Position numbers and translations under genes: made by a program. DNA of 64,000 nucleotides, taken from positions 1-64,000 of the forward strand of contig JADBYT010000024.1 of the NCBI GenBank assembly GCA_020402865.1, written 5' to 3'. Below, piece by piece: positions 3,079 to 25,202 of this stretch (position 1 is the first letter of the stretch; each line of letters starts with the position of its first letter). The DNA comes from Bacteroidota bacterium. Its GTDB lineage: Bacteria > Bacteroidota > Bacteroidia > Palsa-965. The notes beneath the pieces are model-generated. The model was not told the origin of the DNA, made no database searches, and worked only from the letters and a program-made list of their open reading frames with translations.

Positions 3079-3663
3079 ATGCGTATTTTATTATTGTTCC
3101 TGTGTGTTACAGGAATTTCAATATCACATCTTTCCTGTACACGAAAGGGAGAAGGCGATCCGTTAATTTCGCTGCGTAGCCGAAAGGCCCGCCTCGACGG
3201 GAAGTGGAAAATTGTTTCCGGTAAGGGAACGTATGAAATGAGTCAGATAAACTATCCATGGATTTATGATGGTAATACACTTATCTACTCATCGTCAAGT
3301 GTACCCGATCAACGCGTTTCGCTGGTGGTGGAGTTTGGGAAAGACGGGAAATATGAATGGACAAGGGTAGAAGAAATACCCACTTCAGGAGGATTAACAA
3401 CAATAGTTGAAACCGGGAACTGGAATTTTAAGACTGGAAAAGATGATTCACGGCGCAAAGAGGAAATCGTGCTTGAGCCGGAGCATGTTTTTCCCACAAT
3501 CAATTTAGTTCAGCAGCCTCATGAACGCGTGTTTGAGTTGCATACACTCAGAAACAATAAGGTGGTGCTGAAACGTAGTTTTTTTACGTTCAATTATTTG
3601 GGATATAATCCGTCTGATCGGGTGAATACAGAGGAGTGGACGCTTGAACCTGTTAATGATTAA
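3079..3663 (+). CDS. lipocalin-like lipoprotein, paralogue 2 of 3
   Basis: A 194-aa predicted lipoprotein with a short hydrophobic signal and a lipobox ending LSC. It is followed by TRKGEGDP and then SLRSRKARLDGKWKI, the segment shared with its neighbours at 2418 and 3668. The rest is beta-strand rich with polar linkers and ends EEWTLEP, as does the next paralogue. The stop codon is 4 bp before the preferred start of the next gene, so the two are co-transcribed. The function is not recognised. Base composition is more AT-rich than the metabolic genes around it. Confidence 0.8.
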   Translation: MRILLLFLCVTGISISHLSCTRKGEGDPLISLRSRKARLDGKWKIVSGKGTYEMSQINYPWIYDGNTLIYSSSSVPDQRVSLVVEFGKDGKYEWTRVEEIPTSGGLTTIVETGNWNFKTGKDDSRRKEEIVLEPEHVFPTINLVQQPHERVFELHTLRNNKVVLKRSFFTFNYLGYNPSDRVNTEEWTLEPVND

Positions 3664-3667
3664 TACG

Positions 3668-4303
3668 ATGAAAAAAAGTTTGTTGTTTCTTCAGTTGATG
3701 GTATTTGTAATGCTTATTGCTTTACCACAATTATCATGCACCCGCAAAGGTGACGATGATCCGCTTTTGTCTCTTCGTACCCGTAAAAGCCGGGTATGTG
3801 GTAAATGGAAAATTTCCGAAGGCCGTACCCGTATGGATTATTCAGCCCGGTTTATGTCGGCAGTTTATTCGCAGTACAATGGGCAAACTGAAACTGTATT
3901 CACGCCCTATTCCAATCAGGTCATTCACGCAATTGACTACACCTTAGAGATTGAGTTTAACAGGGATAATACATTTACCTGGGTAATGAACTGGAACAGC
4001 AGTGCCGGTGTAAGTGAGAAAGGAGAATTAAAAGGACAATGGGATTTTTTGTCAAAATCCGATCATCAGAAAAATAAAGTGGAACTGATATTAACGCCCG
4101 AAAGCAATACCGGAAACTGGCTTTACAGCTATTCCTGCCCGTTTCCGGCATCACAGCAAACACCTGTATTTATACTCAGGGAATTGCGCAATGATAAAAT
4201 GGTAATACGCAGAGAATTTAATATTTCTACCGAAAGCCTTCAGGGCCCATTCACCGGGCAAACCAGTCCTTATTTTGAGGAATGGATACTGGAGCCCCGG
4301 TAA
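3668..4303 (+). CDS. lipocalin-like lipoprotein, paralogue 3 of 3
   Basis: A 211-aa predicted lipoprotein. The frame opens at 3644, but the ATG at 3668 starts a classic lipoprotein signal (MKKSLLFLQ, lipobox LSC), so 3668 is preferred. The mature protein begins TRKGDDDP followed by SLRTRKSRVCGKWKI and ends EEWILEP, which matches paralogue 2 closely and paralogue 1 more loosely. The middle carries a long loop absent from paralogue 1. The three genes are a tandem duplication family. Their role at the outer membrane or periplasmic face is unknown. Confidence 0.8.
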   Translation: MKKSLLFLQLMVFVMLIALPQLSCTRKGDDDPLLSLRTRKSRVCGKWKISEGRTRMDYSARFMSAVYSQYNGQTETVFTPYSNQVIHAIDYTLEIEFNRDNTFTWVMNWNSSAGVSEKGELKGQWDFLSKSDHQKNKVELILTPESNTGNWLYSYSCPFPASQQTPVFILRELRNDKMVIRREFNISTESLQGPFTGQTSPYFEEWILEPR

Positions 4304-4338
4304 GCCGGTTTGTATTTCGCTAAACCAAAACAGCAGCC

Positions 4339-4346
4339 TATCTTTG
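4339..4346 (+). promoter_or_regulatory. -7 box of glycosyltransferase 4354
   Basis: TATCTTTG lies 7 nt before the ATG, which suggests a nearly leaderless transcript. Confidence 0.55.
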
Positions 4347-4353
4347 GCAACGT

Positions 4354-5313
4354 ATGCCCAAAATACTGGTTGTCCGTTTCAGTTCCATTGGTGATATTGT
4401 GCTCACCACACCGGTGGTACGTGCGCTGAAGCAGCAGCTTAATGCAGAGGTGCATTACATTACCAAGAAAGGCTTTCGCGGTATTCTTGCGCACAATCCG
4501 TATATCGATAAAATCATTACCATAGAAAGCAAGGTGAGTGAAGCGGAAGCCGAGCTCCGCGCAGCGGATTATGATTTTGTGGTTGATCTGCACCACAACC
4601 TGCGTTCGATGCAGGTAAAAAGGTTAACGGGCAAGCCTTCGGGTTCGTTTCCGAAACTCAATGTGCAGAAATGGATGCTGGTGAATCTGGGTATTAACCG
4701 TATGCCGGAAATGCACATTGTCGATCGCTATTTTGAAGCGGTGAAGGCGTTGCATGTGGTAAACGACGGCAAGGGGCTTGATTACTTTATTGCCCCCGCC
4801 GATGAAGTTGATCTCAGCACCCTGCCCGATACGCATCGGCACGGCTACATTGCCGTAACGGCGGGGGCAAAGTTTGCCACCAAGCAGCTCCCTGCCGGTA
4901 AACTCATCGCCATAATTAATCTCCTCGAACTGCCTGTGGTGCTGCTTGGCGGCCCCGAAGATGCACAGCGTGGTGCCGAAATTGAACAAGCCTGCGGCAG
5001 CAAAGTATATAATGCCTGCGGCCGCTACAACCTCGGCCAGTCGGCATCACTGGTGCGGCAGGCCACACGCGTAATTGCGCACGATACCGGCCTGATGCAC
5101 ATTGCCGCCGCATTTCACAAACGCATACACTCCGTATGGGGCAACACCGTGCCCGAACTGGGCATGACGCCCTACCTGCCCGCCGAAGGCTCGGTAATTG
5201 TGCAAACTACCGGACTGCGCTGCCGCCCCTGCTCAAAAATTGGTTACGACCATTGCCCCAAAGGGCATTTCCACTGCATGAACCGCATCAGCCCCGAAGC
5301 TTTTGCCGTGTGA
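4354..5313 (+). CDS. glycosyltransferase family 9 (heptosyltransferase-like)
   Basis: A 319-aa GT-B fold protein of the ADP-heptose:LPS heptosyltransferase family. The N-terminus has the family start KILVVRFSSIGDIVLTTPV. The C-terminal nucleotide-sugar domain shows VLLGGPED near residue 195 and the HDTGLMHIAAA segment near 243, both typical of GT9. The family transfers heptose or related sugars to the lipopolysaccharide core at the inner face of the inner membrane. A cysteine-rich tail (CRPCSKIGYDHCPKGHFHC) is common in Bacteroidota members. The exact sugar and acceptor cannot be told. Confidence 0.9.
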   Translation: MPKILVVRFSSIGDIVLTTPVVRALKQQLNAEVHYITKKGFRGILAHNPYIDKIITIESKVSEAEAELRAADYDFVVDLHHNLRSMQVKRLTGKPSGSFPKLNVQKWMLVNLGINRMPEMHIVDRYFEAVKALHVVNDGKGLDYFIAPADEVDLSTLPDTHRHGYIAVTAGAKFATKQLPAGKLIAIINLLELPVVLLGGPEDAQRGAEIEQACGSKVYNACGRYNLGQSASLVRQATRVIAHDTGLMHIAAAFHKRIHSVWGNTVPELGMTPYLPAEGSVIVQTTGLRCRPCSKIGYDHCPKGHFHCMNRISPEAFAV

Positions 5314-5365
5314 GCGGCATGTTCGTTTGTATTGCGTATCTTCATTGCGCTAAACACAACCACAT

Positions 5366-7213
5366 ATGAAATTCCGTTTACTTCTTTCGCTCAGCGTCTT
5401 CAGCCTTACACTGGCTGCGCAGCAAGCATCAACCTGGCGCATTGCACCCGGCGCTACCACCACACTCGACCGCAGCGGCGCCGATTATGCGCCCGTTGTT
5501 CAATGTATTGAGCAGCCCAGCCCGGTTGCCAAAAGCGAATTGCAGCGCGTAAAAGACAGCCTCGCTGCAATGTATCCGCGCCACAACAATACAGCAGCTG
5601 CTCCGGCAAACACGCAGCGCAGCGCAGTAGTTCCGCCTGCGCCCACACTTGGTGCCACGTTTCAGGGCAACCCCTACAGCAGCAGCACGCCCTGCGATAA
5701 TGAAATTTCAATTGGCAACAACGGCCAGCTGATTTCGGTGCAAAACACCAACATTTTCCGCTACAATACCAACAACAATACGGCATACACGCTGCGCTCG
5801 CTGGCCTTCTTCTCGCAGCCGCTGCTCATTGGCGGTTCAAAGTACGATCCGAAAGTGCTGTACGACCCCGAAGCAAACCGCCACATCATGGTGTTTCTGG
5901 CCGGCTACTCATCCACGCAAACCAATATCATTGTAGCCTTTTCCAATTCCGACAGTGTAAACGGAACCTGGCACCTTTACTCGCTTCCCGGCAACCCGGT
6001 GGGCGATAATACGTGGAGCGATTACCCGATGATTTCGGTAAATCAAAACGATCTTTTCATTACCGTTAACCGCGTAATCGACAACCAGCCCTGGCAAACT
6101 GGTTTTGCCGAAACACTCATCTGGCAGGTGGGCAAATGGGACGGCTACAGCGGCGATACACTTACCTCGCAGCTTCGCCGCAACGTGCAGTATGGCGGCC
6201 GTCCGGTACGCAATATGTGTCCGGTTGAAGGCGGTAATTTTCCGCAGCAGGCAAACGAACAGTATTTCCTCTCCAACCGGAACCTCACCACCGGCAACGA
6301 TACCATTTTCCTTGTGCACCTTGTGGGCACGGCCATGGACACAGCCGTAAGCATAACCGTTACACCCATCGTGGCCGACCGTATGTATGTGGCGCCGCCC
6401 GACGCCGTGCAGCCCGGAAACGGCGGACTGCTGGCCACCAACGATGCGCGTGTGCTGGGTGCATTTATGCAAAACGGACGCATACAGTATGTGCATAATA
6501 CAATGGACACCGCCACAGGCACGGCCGGCATTATGCACGGCGTAATCAGCAACTATGCCACCACGCCGGCTATTGCAAGCACACTGATCAGCGATACGCT
6601 TGTGGAATACGGTTACCCGAATATTGCCTACGCCGGATACGATGGCAGCGACAACAACGCCATGATTATCATGCTGCGCACATCGCCCGCACTCAATCCC
6701 GGCTTTGTGGCGCTCACTACCGATGGCAACGGAGGCTACTCGCCGCAGCTGGTGGTGAAACAGGGTGTAGGCCCGTACAACGTGCTCGGCGGCGGCGAAC
6801 GCTGGGGCGATTACTCCGGCATACAACGCCGCTACGATGCGCAGGGAACCTGCTGGGTAAACGGCCTCTACGGCATGAGCAACGGCACGCACAGCACCTG
6901 GATTGCCGAACTTGGCATTTCGCCCGATGTGAACGTGAATGAAAGTGCACCGGCCACCACACCCATTTCCGTATTCCCCAATCCGTTTGCTGATCGCATT
7001 GCGGTGGAGTTTACACTGGAGCAGGCGCAAACACTGCGTTTTGAACTTTACGACATGAATGGCCGTTTGGTTGAACTCCTGCTCGAAGACAGAGTGAAGG
7101 CTGGTGTAAACCGCTTCAGCTTTTCGGCACAGCCCCTGCCTGCAGGCGTGTATCTGCTGCGTGTGGCCGGAAACAACGGCATGGTGGCCGAGTCAAAAGT
7201 AATCCGCCAATGA
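5366..7213 (+). CDS. T9SS type-A sorting domain protein, large secreted
   Basis: A 615-aa secreted protein. A Sec signal peptide (MKFRLLLSLSVFSLTLAAQQ) is followed by a low-complexity Ala/Pro/Thr/Asn stretch. A long central region (residues about 100-520) has repeated Gly/Asp/Trp-containing beta-strands suggestive of a beta-propeller. The C-terminal 80 residues are a type-A T9SS sorting domain, with PNPF near 533, LYDMNGRLV and GVYLLRV. T9SS cargo is exported across the outer membrane and anchored or released. No catalytic motif is identified. The HNH gene overlaps its last 4 bp. Confidence 0.85.
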   Translation: MKFRLLLSLSVFSLTLAAQQASTWRIAPGATTTLDRSGADYAPVVQCIEQPSPVAKSELQRVKDSLAAMYPRHNNTAAAPANTQRSAVVPPAPTLGATFQGNPYSSSTPCDNEISIGNNGQLISVQNTNIFRYNTNNNTAYTLRSLAFFSQPLLIGGSKYDPKVLYDPEANRHIMVFLAGYSSTQTNIIVAFSNSDSVNGTWHLYSLPGNPVGDNTWSDYPMISVNQNDLFITVNRVIDNQPWQTGFAETLIWQVGKWDGYSGDTLTSQLRRNVQYGGRPVRNMCPVEGGNFPQQANEQYFLSNRNLTTGNDTIFLVHLVGTAMDTAVSITVTPIVADRMYVAPPDAVQPGNGGLLATNDARVLGAFMQNGRIQYVHNTMDTATGTAGIMHGVISNYATTPAIASTLISDTLVEYGYPNIAYAGYDGSDNNAMIIMLRTSPALNPGFVALTTDGNGGYSPQLVVKQGVGPYNVLGGGERWGDYSGIQRRYDAQGTCWVNGLYGMSNGTHSTWIAELGISPDVNVNESAPATTPISVFPNPFADRIAVEFTLEQAQTLRFELYDMNGRLVELLLEDRVKAGVNRFSFSAQPLPAGVYLLRVAGNNGMVAESKVIRQ

Positions 7214-11203: not shown

Positions 11204-11211
11204 TACCTTTG
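11204..11211 (+). promoter_or_regulatory. -7 box of the Shedu-type pair
   Basis: TACCTTTG lies 5 nt before the ATG at 11217 and 9 nt after the gcvT stop. It predicts a leaderless mRNA for the two-gene unit, independent of gcvT. Confidence 0.55.
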
Positions 11212-11216
11212 AAAAT

Positions 11217-11528
11217 ATGATTTCGTTGCTTTTTATTTCAAACCGTGTCAATCTTACCTTTTCGCATGGCGCAAGGGTGGTTTATAATTTTTTATCGGTT
11301 GATGAGCAACGATTTCTGAATGAAAAACTTCCTGCACTGCTTATCAATTACCGCAAACCCGAAAACAAAGATCGAATCAGGAAAATTAACCTTCCTGATT
11401 ACCCGGTTTATATTTTATCTATAAACGAGTTGCGGGTTTTCTTCAAAGTTCTTTCGCCATCGCAGTTCGAAATTCTTGATATTACCGACAAGCAAATGCT
11501 TGAGCGGTTCTCTAAAAAATCGGCCTGA
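11217..11528 (+). CDS. small RelE/ParE-fold-like protein beside Shedu gene
   Basis: A 103-aa protein that I do not recognise with confidence. The C-terminal pattern YILSINELRVFFKVLS followed by FEILDIT resembles the closing beta-hairpin of RelE/ParE/HigB-type toxins (usually yRvxYxv...ixIldI). The N-terminal NLTFSHGARVVYNFLS could be its first strand and helix. A typical ParE length is 90-105 aa, so the size fits. It lies 4 bp before the DUF4263 gene and surely shares its mRNA. It may be a toxin, an accessory subunit or a regulator of the nuclease; the fold assignment is inference. Confidence 0.55.
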   Translation: MISLLFISNRVNLTFSHGARVVYNFLSVDEQRFLNEKLPALLINYRKPENKDRIRKINLPDYPVYILSINELRVFFKVLSPSQFEILDITDKQMLERFSKKSA

Positions 11529-11532
11529 TACA

Positions 11533-12150
11533 ATGACCGGATTTGAACCGAGTAAATTCAATTCGGTAATACTCAAGGAGGAATTAGGCGAATTTCGTAA
11601 GCTGATTGATTCTGGCGAAAAGCTGGATGAACAGAAAGTAATCCAACCTTTTTTCAGAAAAAGAAAACAGCTTTCGGCGTTTATCGGATCGTTTGTGAGT
11701 GGGCTGGATGTAAACCGGATTTCTTTTGAGCTTAATTTGTTTGGCGATTTTAGCCCTGATCTGGTTATAGGCGATTACACGCGTTCGAAATATTGTTTTG
11801 TGGAGTTTGAATCGGGATTACCGCAAGCAATTTTTAAAAAAACGACAGGCCGTAAAGCCCCCCGATGGTCAGCTAAGTTTGAAGAGGGATATAGCCAGAT
11901 TGTGGATTGGTTTTGGAAGGTGGAAGAACAATCGGGCACCGCTTCGTTTAGAAAACTTTTTGAGGCCGATTCGATAATATCCTCCGGTCTTTTGATTATT
12001 GGCCGTAGTAACGACCTTGATGAATTCGGGCGAAACAGAATGAGCTGGAGAGGTGAAAAAGTTGTGGTTAATTCGTCACTTATTCAGTGCATGACATACG
12101 ACAGCCTACTCGCTGATCTCGAACGAAGGTTAATGATTTATAATTACTGA
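11533..12150 (+). CDS. Shedu-type DUF4263 PD-(D/E)XK nuclease
   Basis: A 205-aa protein resembling the C-terminal domain of the anti-phage protein SduA (DUF4263). The core shows SPDLVIGDYTRSKYCFVEFE at about residues 75-94, the PD...ExE pattern, followed by WSAKFEEGYSQIVDWFWKV, the typical Trp/Gln helix after the active site. The C-terminus MTYDSLLADLERRL also fits. The canonical ExK is ExE here. The start at 11533 is preferred over 11476 because it follows the upstream stop by 4 bp. It lacks the long N-terminal sensor region of full Shedu. The comB gene follows after 2 bp. Confidence 0.75.
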   Translation: MTGFEPSKFNSVILKEELGEFRKLIDSGEKLDEQKVIQPFFRKRKQLSAFIGSFVSGLDVNRISFELNLFGDFSPDLVIGDYTRSKYCFVEFESGLPQAIFKKTTGRKAPRWSAKFEEGYSQIVDWFWKVEEQSGTASFRKLFEADSIISSGLLIIGRSNDLDEFGRNRMSWRGEKVVVNSSLIQCMTYDSLLADLERRLMIYNY

Positions 12151-12887: not shown

Positions 12888-12947
12888 CACACATAAATTT
12901 CACACATTCATCACTTCAGGCAGGGCCGATTTGTTTACTTTAGAGTG

Positions 12948-13943
12948 ATGAAAAAGCTGAAACGTTTTTCAGGACTTATTGTGCTGCTGGTGGCTGCATG
13001 GCTGCTGCTTATTCCCGCCCCGAAGGCTGAATCGTGGGGATTTTGGGGGCACCGGCGCATAAACCGTATGGCCGTGTTTACACTGCCGCCCGAAATGATG
13101 GGCTTTTACAAAAAGCATATCGAATACATTACCGAACACGCCGTGGATCCCGACAAGCGCCGCTATGCCATACCCGAAGAAGCGCCGCGGCATTACATAG
13201 ACATTGACCACTACGGCAAATTTGCGTTTGATAGTGTGCCGCGTTTCTGGAAAGCAGCCGTGGCAAAATATTCGGAAGATACGTTGCAGGCCTATGGCAT
13301 TGTGCCGTGGTGGATTGATGTAATGACGTACCGCCTCACGCAGGCTTTCCGCGATGGCAACGTGGATAAAATACTCCAGTACTCGGCCGAGCTTGGTCAC
13401 TACGTGGGCGATGCGCACGTGCCGCTGCACACCACCGAAAACTACAACGGCCAGCTTACCAACCAGCACGGCATACACGGCTTCTGGGAATCGCGCATTC
13501 CCGAATTGTATGGCGAAAGCTACGACTACTTCGTGGGCCGTGCCCGCTATCTTGATTCGCCAATCAATTCGGCGTGGGACTGGGTGTATGCAAGTCATCA
13601 GTCGCTCGACTCGGTGCTTTTTTTTGAAGCACAGCTCAATGCCAAAACGCCGCCCGACCGTAAGTATGCTTACGAATCGCGCGGGGCTGCCAATATGCGT
13701 GTATATAGCGAAGAATACTCGCGCGCATACAGCACCGTGCTCAACGGCATGGTGGAGCGGCGTTTGCGGGCCTCTATTTATTTCACCGGCAGCCTTTGGT
13801 ACACGGCATGGGTAAATGCCGGCCAGCCTGATTTGCGAAAGCTGGAAGACAAAGACGTGAGCGACTCTATGAAGCGTAAGCAGGCCGAAGAGGAATACCT
13901 CTGGAAAAACGGTAAACTCAAAGGCAAAGGCCATGAAGACTGA
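12948..13943 (+). CDS. zinc-dependent phospholipase C-like exported protein
   Basis: A 331-aa secreted protein. The start ATG at 12948 follows a GTG at 12945. The signal peptide spans about residues 1-29 (hydrophobic LIVLLVAAWLLLIPAPKA). The mature N-terminus WGFWGHRRIN begins with Trp-Gly-X-X-Gly-His, the trinuclear zinc signature of the phospholipase C/P1 nuclease fold. Further ligands are HYIDIDHYG near 87, and ELGHYVGDAHVPLHTTENYNG near 168, with the HxxxD and H ligands. The substrate, phospholipid or nucleic acid, is unresolved. The next gene overlaps its end by 11 bp, so they are coupled. Confidence 0.88.
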   Translation: MKKLKRFSGLIVLLVAAWLLLIPAPKAESWGFWGHRRINRMAVFTLPPEMMGFYKKHIEYITEHAVDPDKRRYAIPEEAPRHYIDIDHYGKFAFDSVPRFWKAAVAKYSEDTLQAYGIVPWWIDVMTYRLTQAFRDGNVDKILQYSAELGHYVGDAHVPLHTTENYNGQLTNQHGIHGFWESRIPELYGESYDYFVGRARYLDSPINSAWDWVYASHQSLDSVLFFEAQLNAKTPPDRKYAYESRGAANMRVYSEEYSRAYSTVLNGMVERRLRASIYFTGSLWYTAWVNAGQPDLRKLEDKDVSDSMKRKQAEEEYLWKNGKLKGKGHED

Positions 13944-24297: not shown

Positions 24298-24819
24298 ATG
24301 TTAGCTCACACAATTAATCAGGACTTTAATTATCCTATTTCACTGCTCAATCGAAGATATGGTGAAGTAAGTGGCATTGCGCGCACAAAATCGGCCACAG
24401 AAGAAAATCCTGATATCCATCTCAGCGATCAGGATGTATCTGCCTTAATGAAAGTCTTTGTCAGGATAAATGATAATCTTCGGGCAAAAGCATTTCGCTA
24501 CACACCCAGTCAGGCACAGGAAGCCTATCAGCATGTTGTTGGAGCAGTAGATACATTAATCGCTCTTGATGAATTTCTTTCAACCAAAGAAATTACAGAT
24601 CAGGCTGATTTTGATTTGTATATGTCGGCAAAAAGCCTGATTTCAAGCTCAATCAAATTTATTGAGACACTACGCATTATTGCTGATGAGTCTATTACGG
24701 TGGATGAAAGTTCGGATGGTTACAACAACTATTTGTCTTCACTTGTTGCACACGGTCTTGGTAGTGAACGAATTAAATCAGGTAATTCGGTCGATGAATT
24801 ATTAAATGGTTTAGAGTAA
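24298..24819 (+). CDS. candidate antitoxin (unrecognised family)
   Basis: A 173-aa mostly helical acidic protein with no motif that I know. Its last base overlaps the start ATG of the RelE-like toxin (TAATG at 24817-24821), the arrangement of a coupled antitoxin-toxin pair. It is longer than most type II antitoxins (70-100 aa). The SSSIKFIETLRII and SLVAHGLGSERI segments suggest a C-terminal toxin-binding region, and no clear helix-turn-helix is visible. The genes are AT-rich and have their own promoter. The antitoxin role is inferred from gene order only. Confidence 0.6.
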   Translation: MLAHTINQDFNYPISLLNRRYGEVSGIARTKSATEENPDIHLSDQDVSALMKVFVRINDNLRAKAFRYTPSQAQEAYQHVVGAVDTLIALDEFLSTKEITDQADFDLYMSAKSLISSSIKFIETLRIIADESITVDESSDGYNNYLSSLVAHGLGSERIKSGNSVDELLNGLE

Positions 24820-25202
24820 TGGCATATAAGTTATCCCTGACCAAGAACTTCGAAAGAGACTTTAAGTCATTTGATCCCGGTGCGAAAACAAAAATTAAGG
24901 AAGCGATGAATGAAATTCATCACAATCCAGCGTCCGGCGAATTACTCAAGCATAACTTACAGGGACTTACCAGTTATCATTTTAACCGCAAGCCCGAAAT
25001 GCGTATTATTTACGCTGTTTATTCCTGCCACGAAAGAAAAGAAGGTATCCTATCCTGCCGTTTCGACGATATTCTGCACACAGATGAGGAACTGGAAACC
25101 TGCAACGGTCTTATTGAGTTTCTGTTTGTGAAAACCCGCGAGGAACTTAATAATGGTTACAAGGTAATCAAGGACACTGCCGCACGATTGAAGCGGGAAT
25201 GA
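24819..25202 (+). CDS. RelE/ParE-family toxin-like protein
   Basis: A 127-aa protein with a RelE-type core: YKLSLTKNFERDFKSFDPGA at the N-terminus, then LKHNLQGLTSYHFNRKPEM and RIIYAVYSCH, the strand-loop-strand typical of RelE-like ribonucleases. A further C-terminal helical tail (about 30 residues) goes beyond the minimal 90-aa fold. Basic residues such as the Arg in FNRKPEMRIIY could act on mRNA. It is coupled by a one-base overlap to the 173-aa upstream gene. Ribonuclease activity is inferred from family resemblance. Confidence 0.75.
   Translation: MAYKLSLTKNFERDFKSFDPGAKTKIKEAMNEIHHNPASGELLKHNLQGLTSYHFNRKPEMRIIYAVYSCHERKEGILSCRFDDILHTDEELETCNGLIEFLFVKTREELNNGYKVIKDTAARLKRE

Follow-up and report, generated by a model that had tools for sequence, protein, structure and literature searches.

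A solo Shedu nuclease and its upstream RelE/ParE-fold partner: a candidate two-protein form of Shedu defence

Published accounts treat Shedu as one protein, with many fused sensor domains controlling its nuclease core. It appears that Shedu also exists in an undescribed two-protein form, in which a toxin fold, reused as a protein of its own, supplies the control. The locus that led us to this view lies in a Bacteroidota bacterium, within a contig stretch of 64,000 nucleotides (the window), where a small protein of the RelE/ParE fold is encoded directly ahead of a short Shedu nuclease, SduA. The reading we favour, and hold to be probable though far from certain, is that the pair constitutes a two-component Shedu defence module. 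In such a module SduA would be the nuclease effector and the RelE-fold protein a trans-acting regulator replacing the N-terminal sensor.

The partner ORF (11217..11528, + strand) encodes 103 aa from the ATG at 11217, and the solo SduA (DUF4263) ORF (11533..12150, + strand) encodes 205 aa from the ATG at 11533. Their positions, the 4 bp between them and the identity of the flanking genes, gcvT and comB, all agreed with an earlier, sequence-only reading of the window once domain searches had been run. Homologues of the partner align only from V11, and the true start may therefore be the GTG at 11247, giving 93 aa; the first 10 residues have a mean pLDDT of 48 in the AlphaFold model. The earlier claim that the pair has its own promoter fared less well. 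A single TACCTTTG box (11204..11211, + strand) has the TAnnTTTG form of the Bacteroidota −7 box and lies 5 bp ahead of the proposed ATG, but this pattern occurs at 59 sites in the window against 48.7 expected by chance, and the box is thus no more than a hint of a separate promoter. Since both genes point the same way as gcvT and comB, with 2 bp left before comB, read-through from the neighbours is possible.

The second ORF is a genuine Shedu nuclease domain. Pfam assigns residues 33-193 of its 205 aa to SduA_C (PF14082; 8.2e-25, 88.2 bits against a curated cut-off of 27), and the PADLOC model PDLC00379 matches residues 1-204 (5.9e-68). The AlphaFold model, computed with ten relatives (pLDDT 90.8), was compared with the PDB by Foldseek, and its only confident matches were E. 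coli SduA (8ps4/8ps5, E 4.6e-7 and 6.8e-7) and the B. cereus Shedu nuclease domain (8ti8/8ti9, E from 1.3e-5, TM up to 0.70). The possibility that the DUF4263 domain is clearly unrelated to Shedu, which the earlier reading had named as fatal to its proposal, thus found no support in Pfam or Foldseek. A sequence search of the PDB with the SduA profile gave only a lectin match, taken as chance, and the structure search was needed. As had been noticed from the sequence, the N-terminal sensor is absent: no domain precedes SduA_C, and canonical Shedu proteins of related Bacteroidota are 377-470 aa long. Decay from such a longer Shedu was considered and rejected, because the match to relatives of 205-212 aa in other phyla is full-length, with no decayed N-terminus.

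The fold of the partner had to be established through its family, since the ORF alone gave no significant match in single-sequence scans of Pfam, PADLOC or NCBIfam. A profile of 21 partners matched P. horikoshii RelE (3.4e-6) and YoeB (8.7e-6) among the PDB sequences, and PHROG 1213, 'RelE-like toxin', matches 12 of these 21 (best 5.1e-7). Weak profile matches to a G-protein beta-subunit (E about 0.06) were taken as chance. The AlphaFold model of the window partner, computed with 11 sequences (pLDDT 83, pTM 0.73), shows the order b-a-a-b-b-b-b-a, in agreement with the b-a-a-b-b-b-a fold of the RelE/ParE superfamily. Foldseek related it with probability 1.00 to RelE of E. coli, T. thermophilus, P. 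horikoshii and M. tuberculosis; each of its 18 best matches is RelE, ParE, YoeB or a related toxin, and Cami1, a CARF-RelE, is among the matches. Moreover, a profile built without the window partner recovered it at E=1.3e-4 among 1508 background ORFs from the window and the collected loci. The RelE/ParE-like character first suspected from the sequence is therefore well founded.

We then asked how regularly the two genes travel together. Relatives of SduA were gathered by tblastn in plasmids and phages, by pattern scans of viral and genome contigs, and by whole-genome searches; scans with exact peptides of the window protein found no relatives in the genome or viral collections, whereas alignment-based scans did. 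Non-redundant loci with an intact solo SduA numbered 25. They come from two Bacteroidota, ten cyanobacterial types, a member of the Thermomicrobiales (Chloroflexota) and three planctomycetes, from Rhizobium Ri plasmids and plasmids of Aliarcobacter and Pantoea, from two phage-plasmids of Enterobacter, and from a Vibrio phage and four IMG/VR contigs. In all 25 loci, covering six phyla, phages and plasmids, a RelE-like ORF lies directly upstream on the same strand, with a 4-bp overlap at the junction in most of them; in two (L005, L010) it is frameshifted beside an intact SduA, which may reflect sequencing errors. By contrast, none of ten canonical long Shedu genes of other Bacteroidota has the partner. 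It is this difference that makes the partner as a substitute for the sensor the best-supported reading, and the earlier suggestion to that effect has gained accordingly. That the partner is a chance ORF was rejected on the regular pairing together with the fold prediction.

When each partner is left out of the profile in turn, 19 of 21 are still recovered at E<=0.0033, that of the window included, and the two that are missed (L054, L078) are assigned by position and pattern. Close relatives of four partner types, sought in plasmids and phages, were found only beside SduA. The partner is usually annotated as 'hypothetical protein' or passed over altogether; in the Ri plasmids the gene table lacks it, and it was found only by reading the sequence. 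In the Vibrio phage, the depositors annotated the two genes as 'RelE-like' and 'Shedu__SduA'. The two proteins also diverge in parallel. In a mirror-tree comparison of 21 pairs, the correlation was r=0.75 (Mantel; p=2e-4 by permutation), and after pruning to 17 pairs it was r=0.50 (p=2e-4 by permutation), a parallelism partly expected from common descent. SduA is the constrained member of the pair and the partner the faster-diverging one; the window and a cyanobacterial pair compare at 44% against 25%.

A RelE-like gene placed first in an operon calls to mind a toxin, and the earlier reading had offered, as its second option, a toxin controlled by the nuclease. In its full form this would be a toxin-antitoxin module of reversed order, as in higBA, with SduA turned antitoxin. 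The fold of the partner speaks for it, as does the lack of another antitoxin gene, for none with an RHH, HTH, Phd or AbrB domain occurs at the locus, where the neighbours are gcvT and SduA. Furthermore, a toxin-first order with a 4-bp overlap is known in higBA-type modules. However, of K52, K54, R61, R81 and Y87, the catalytic residues of E. coli RelE, R61 alone is retained (17 of 23 partners, the window's included); in the alignment to the E. coli sequence, K52, K54, R81 and Y87 are each kept in 1 of 23 partners. The partner has no invariant residue at all, the best being D88 at 91%. In several cyanobacteria, intact partners stand beside a broken or deleted SduA (L070, L073, L087, L091, L093, L095), which tells against a RelE-type toxin held in check by SduA and would suit a partner that does no harm by itself, although the frameshifted partners next to an intact SduA warn that the asymmetry is not absolute. 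Finally, the nuclease site of SduA is invariant, and an antitoxin would not need it. The partner thus has the RelE fold without the marks of an mRNase or of a toxin-antitoxin component, and we regard the toxin-antitoxin explanation as unlikely. Toxicity of the ParE type, directed at gyrase, would require residues other than the RelE mRNase set and could still apply.

The same observations bear on a scheme in which both proteins are effectors, SduA cutting phage DNA while the partner blocks translation or gyrase in an abortive infection. RelE/ParE proteins do act as effectors in several defence systems (Gerdes 2025, PMC11980606), and the match to Cami1 points the same way. Against this, the partner has no conserved catalytic set and is tolerated without SduA, and we give the scheme as little credence as the toxin-antitoxin one.

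The active site of the nuclease presents a different picture. E33 (codon 11629..11631, + strand), a candidate catalytic or structural acid, D76 (11758..11760, + strand), the PD-(D/E)xK aspartate, E91 and E93 of the E91-F92-E93 motif (11803..11811, + strand) and Q122 of the S-Q-x-x-D-W motif (11896..11898, + strand) are invariant in all 25 solo SduA proteins, as are W112 and W126. The replacement of ExK by ExE, already remarked on from the sequence, is therefore present in the window and fixed in the group: the canonical Shedu proteins of related Bacteroidota read D...ELK/EIK, every solo member reads E-x-E, and the PD-(D/E)xK lysine is absent from the window SduA and from all 25 solo members. 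An ExE site is active in BamHI. As glutamate has taken the place of lysine throughout six phyla, with the other acids equally constant, the site looks like a working variant. One could imagine instead that SduA is catalytically dead and that the pair forms a DNA-binding or regulatory complex unrelated to DNA cleavage. The loss of the lysine in all members would agree with this, and the ExK lysine is essential in VcSduA (K557A, PMC12137116). Yet dead sites normally drift, and here five residues (E33, D76, E91, E93, Q122) have stayed invariant among distant members; together with the BamHI precedent, this makes a dead nuclease very improbable. The fixed ExE site also offers a test of whether Shedu cleaves without its canonical lysine.

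According to the two-component reading, the RelE/ParE-fold protein, made just before SduA, would bind it and provide the regulation that in other Shedu proteins comes from a fused N-terminal domain. The partner would probably keep the nuclease inactive until infection is signalled, and solo SduA would then act as the effector. The two folds, the strict pairing and gene order, the parallel divergence, the invariant ExE site, the loss of the RelE mRNase residues, the mobility and the private insertion are observed, and the physical complex, the inhibition, the trigger, the DNA cleavage and the phage defence are inferred. Further architectures agree with such a role. In some cyanobacteria (L057, L058, L059/L092, L076/L095, L091, L093), proteins of about 400-415 aa carry REase_AHJR-like and HEPN-like regions and end in the partner's RelE-like domain, some of them being retained after the neighbouring SduA was lost; the REase_AHJR-like domain scores 1.4e-22 in Pfam and the HEPN match is weak in a protein of about 412 aa. 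In a Thermomicrobiales MAG, the RelE-like domain closes a 316-aa protein. This is what is expected of an adaptor that couples varied modules to one nuclease. Counting against the two-component reading are the two frameshifted partners beside an intact SduA, the ExE that stands where ExK is expected, and the chromosomal copies, which do not lie in clear defence islands. We speculate, more tentatively and with somewhat less than even confidence, that the toxin fold has had its role inverted in at least six phyla. A RelE/ParE protein would then stand on the antitoxin side, as trans-acting inhibitor or sensor of a Shedu nuclease on the toxic side, and would be swappable onto sensor modules such as AHJR-HEPN.

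The history of the locus was examined in related genomes. Among 17 relatives with comB, the pair is absent from every one. In 15, the whole of gcvT is seen next to comB with the pair missing (the gap, where it could be measured, is about −4 to 163 bp), in one about 1.1 kb comes after gcvT, and in one gcvT is not seen. Related gcvT-comB loci thus carry neither gene, rather than the small ORF alone as the earlier reading had feared, and the idea of a housekeeping gene of this locus was rejected. No match to the window partner was found in 99 relatives or in plasmids, nor did the window SduA turn up in any of 394 other genomes of the class; one further pair (L081) emerged when 395 genomes of the phylum were searched with a profile. 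The pair in the window is therefore a recent, species-private insertion.

Elsewhere the pair is carried by Ri plasmids, P1-like Enterobacter phage-plasmids, Aliarcobacter and Pantoea plasmids and a Vibrio phage. We therefore considered whether it is cargo for competition between mobile elements, or for plasmid or phage maintenance, rather than host defence as such. These carriers favour the idea, but single chromosomal insertions without mobile genes are also seen, and we think it about as improbable as a dead nuclease; it concerns the beneficiary and is compatible with the main mechanism. The pair moves on phages, phage-plasmids and conjugative plasmids and lands singly in chromosomes. No clear defence islands were found around the chromosomal copies. 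In the P1-like phage-plasmids (L045, L004, L005), the neighbours of the pair are ssb and either phage head or DarA/DdrB-like genes, which suggests an accessory-gene spot. In the Vibrio phage (L008), a 756-aa UvrD-like helicase annotated as GajB-like (3646-5916, − strand) adjoins the pair and is possibly a second defence cargo gene.

With respect to known systems, window SduA has in common with B. cereus and E. coli SduA (Gu et al. 2025, Loeff et al. 2025) the nuclease fold, PF14082 and the D...E...SQ motifs; it differs in having no N-terminal domain, ExE in place of ExK and an obligatory separate partner upstream. According to reviews, Shedu of types I and II consists of a single protein (PMC12409362), and PADLOC treats Shedu as single-gene (PMC8565338). 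The full-length match to PDLC00379 (211 aa) means that the short nuclease subfamily is already counted as Shedu, and PADLOC has no model for the partner. As the domain and the fold are those of Shedu while the ExK and the single-protein organization of type I are missing, window SduA is best called a Shedu variant. VcSduA (type I-D, a GHKL ATPase-Shedu; PMC12137116) likewise has a Shedu nuclease controlled by a non-nuclease module, but there the sensor is fused in cis and the ExK lysine is essential. The partner shares fold, topology and profile relationship with the BECR-fold toxins RelE, YoeB, ParE, HigB and Gp49; unlike them, it has neither an RHH, HTH or Phd antitoxin nor the RelE catalytic residues, and it is paired with a nuclease. 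In ptuXYZ (Gerdes 2025, PMC11980606), a BECR/RelE-fold protein and a nuclease also share an operon, but that system has three genes, with an ATPase and DUF262, and no Shedu domain; DUF4263 and SduA go unmentioned in the same survey. The earlier statement that no RelE plus DUF4263 system has been described agrees with the literature searched, to which Gu et al. 2025 and Loeff et al. 2025 did not belong; as the former is the main Shedu survey, the novelty is provisional. If the two-component reading is true, exchanging two small genes could test how Shedu is activated, with no fused protein to take apart; Shedu would gain a second gene, one now missed by tools that look for defence systems, and the RelE fold would be seen serving as a nuclease regulator.

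Three further observations concern neighbouring or similar genes. A planctomycete locus (L080) encodes a Shedu-like ORF of 391 aa (− strand) with the nuclease domain N-terminal, an ExE site (VEIES) and an unknown C-terminal extension. In the window, an S1/P1-type nuclease gene (12945-13943, + strand) lies downstream of comB and is conserved in most relatives examined. A second, unrelated RelE/ParE-like toxin of 127 aa (24819-25202, + strand; PF15781 ParE-like, 8.3e-6, just below the cut-off) directly follows a 173-aa ORF (24298-24819, + strand) that could be its antitoxin, and this pair (24298-25202) sits between an accD-like gene and rpsO.
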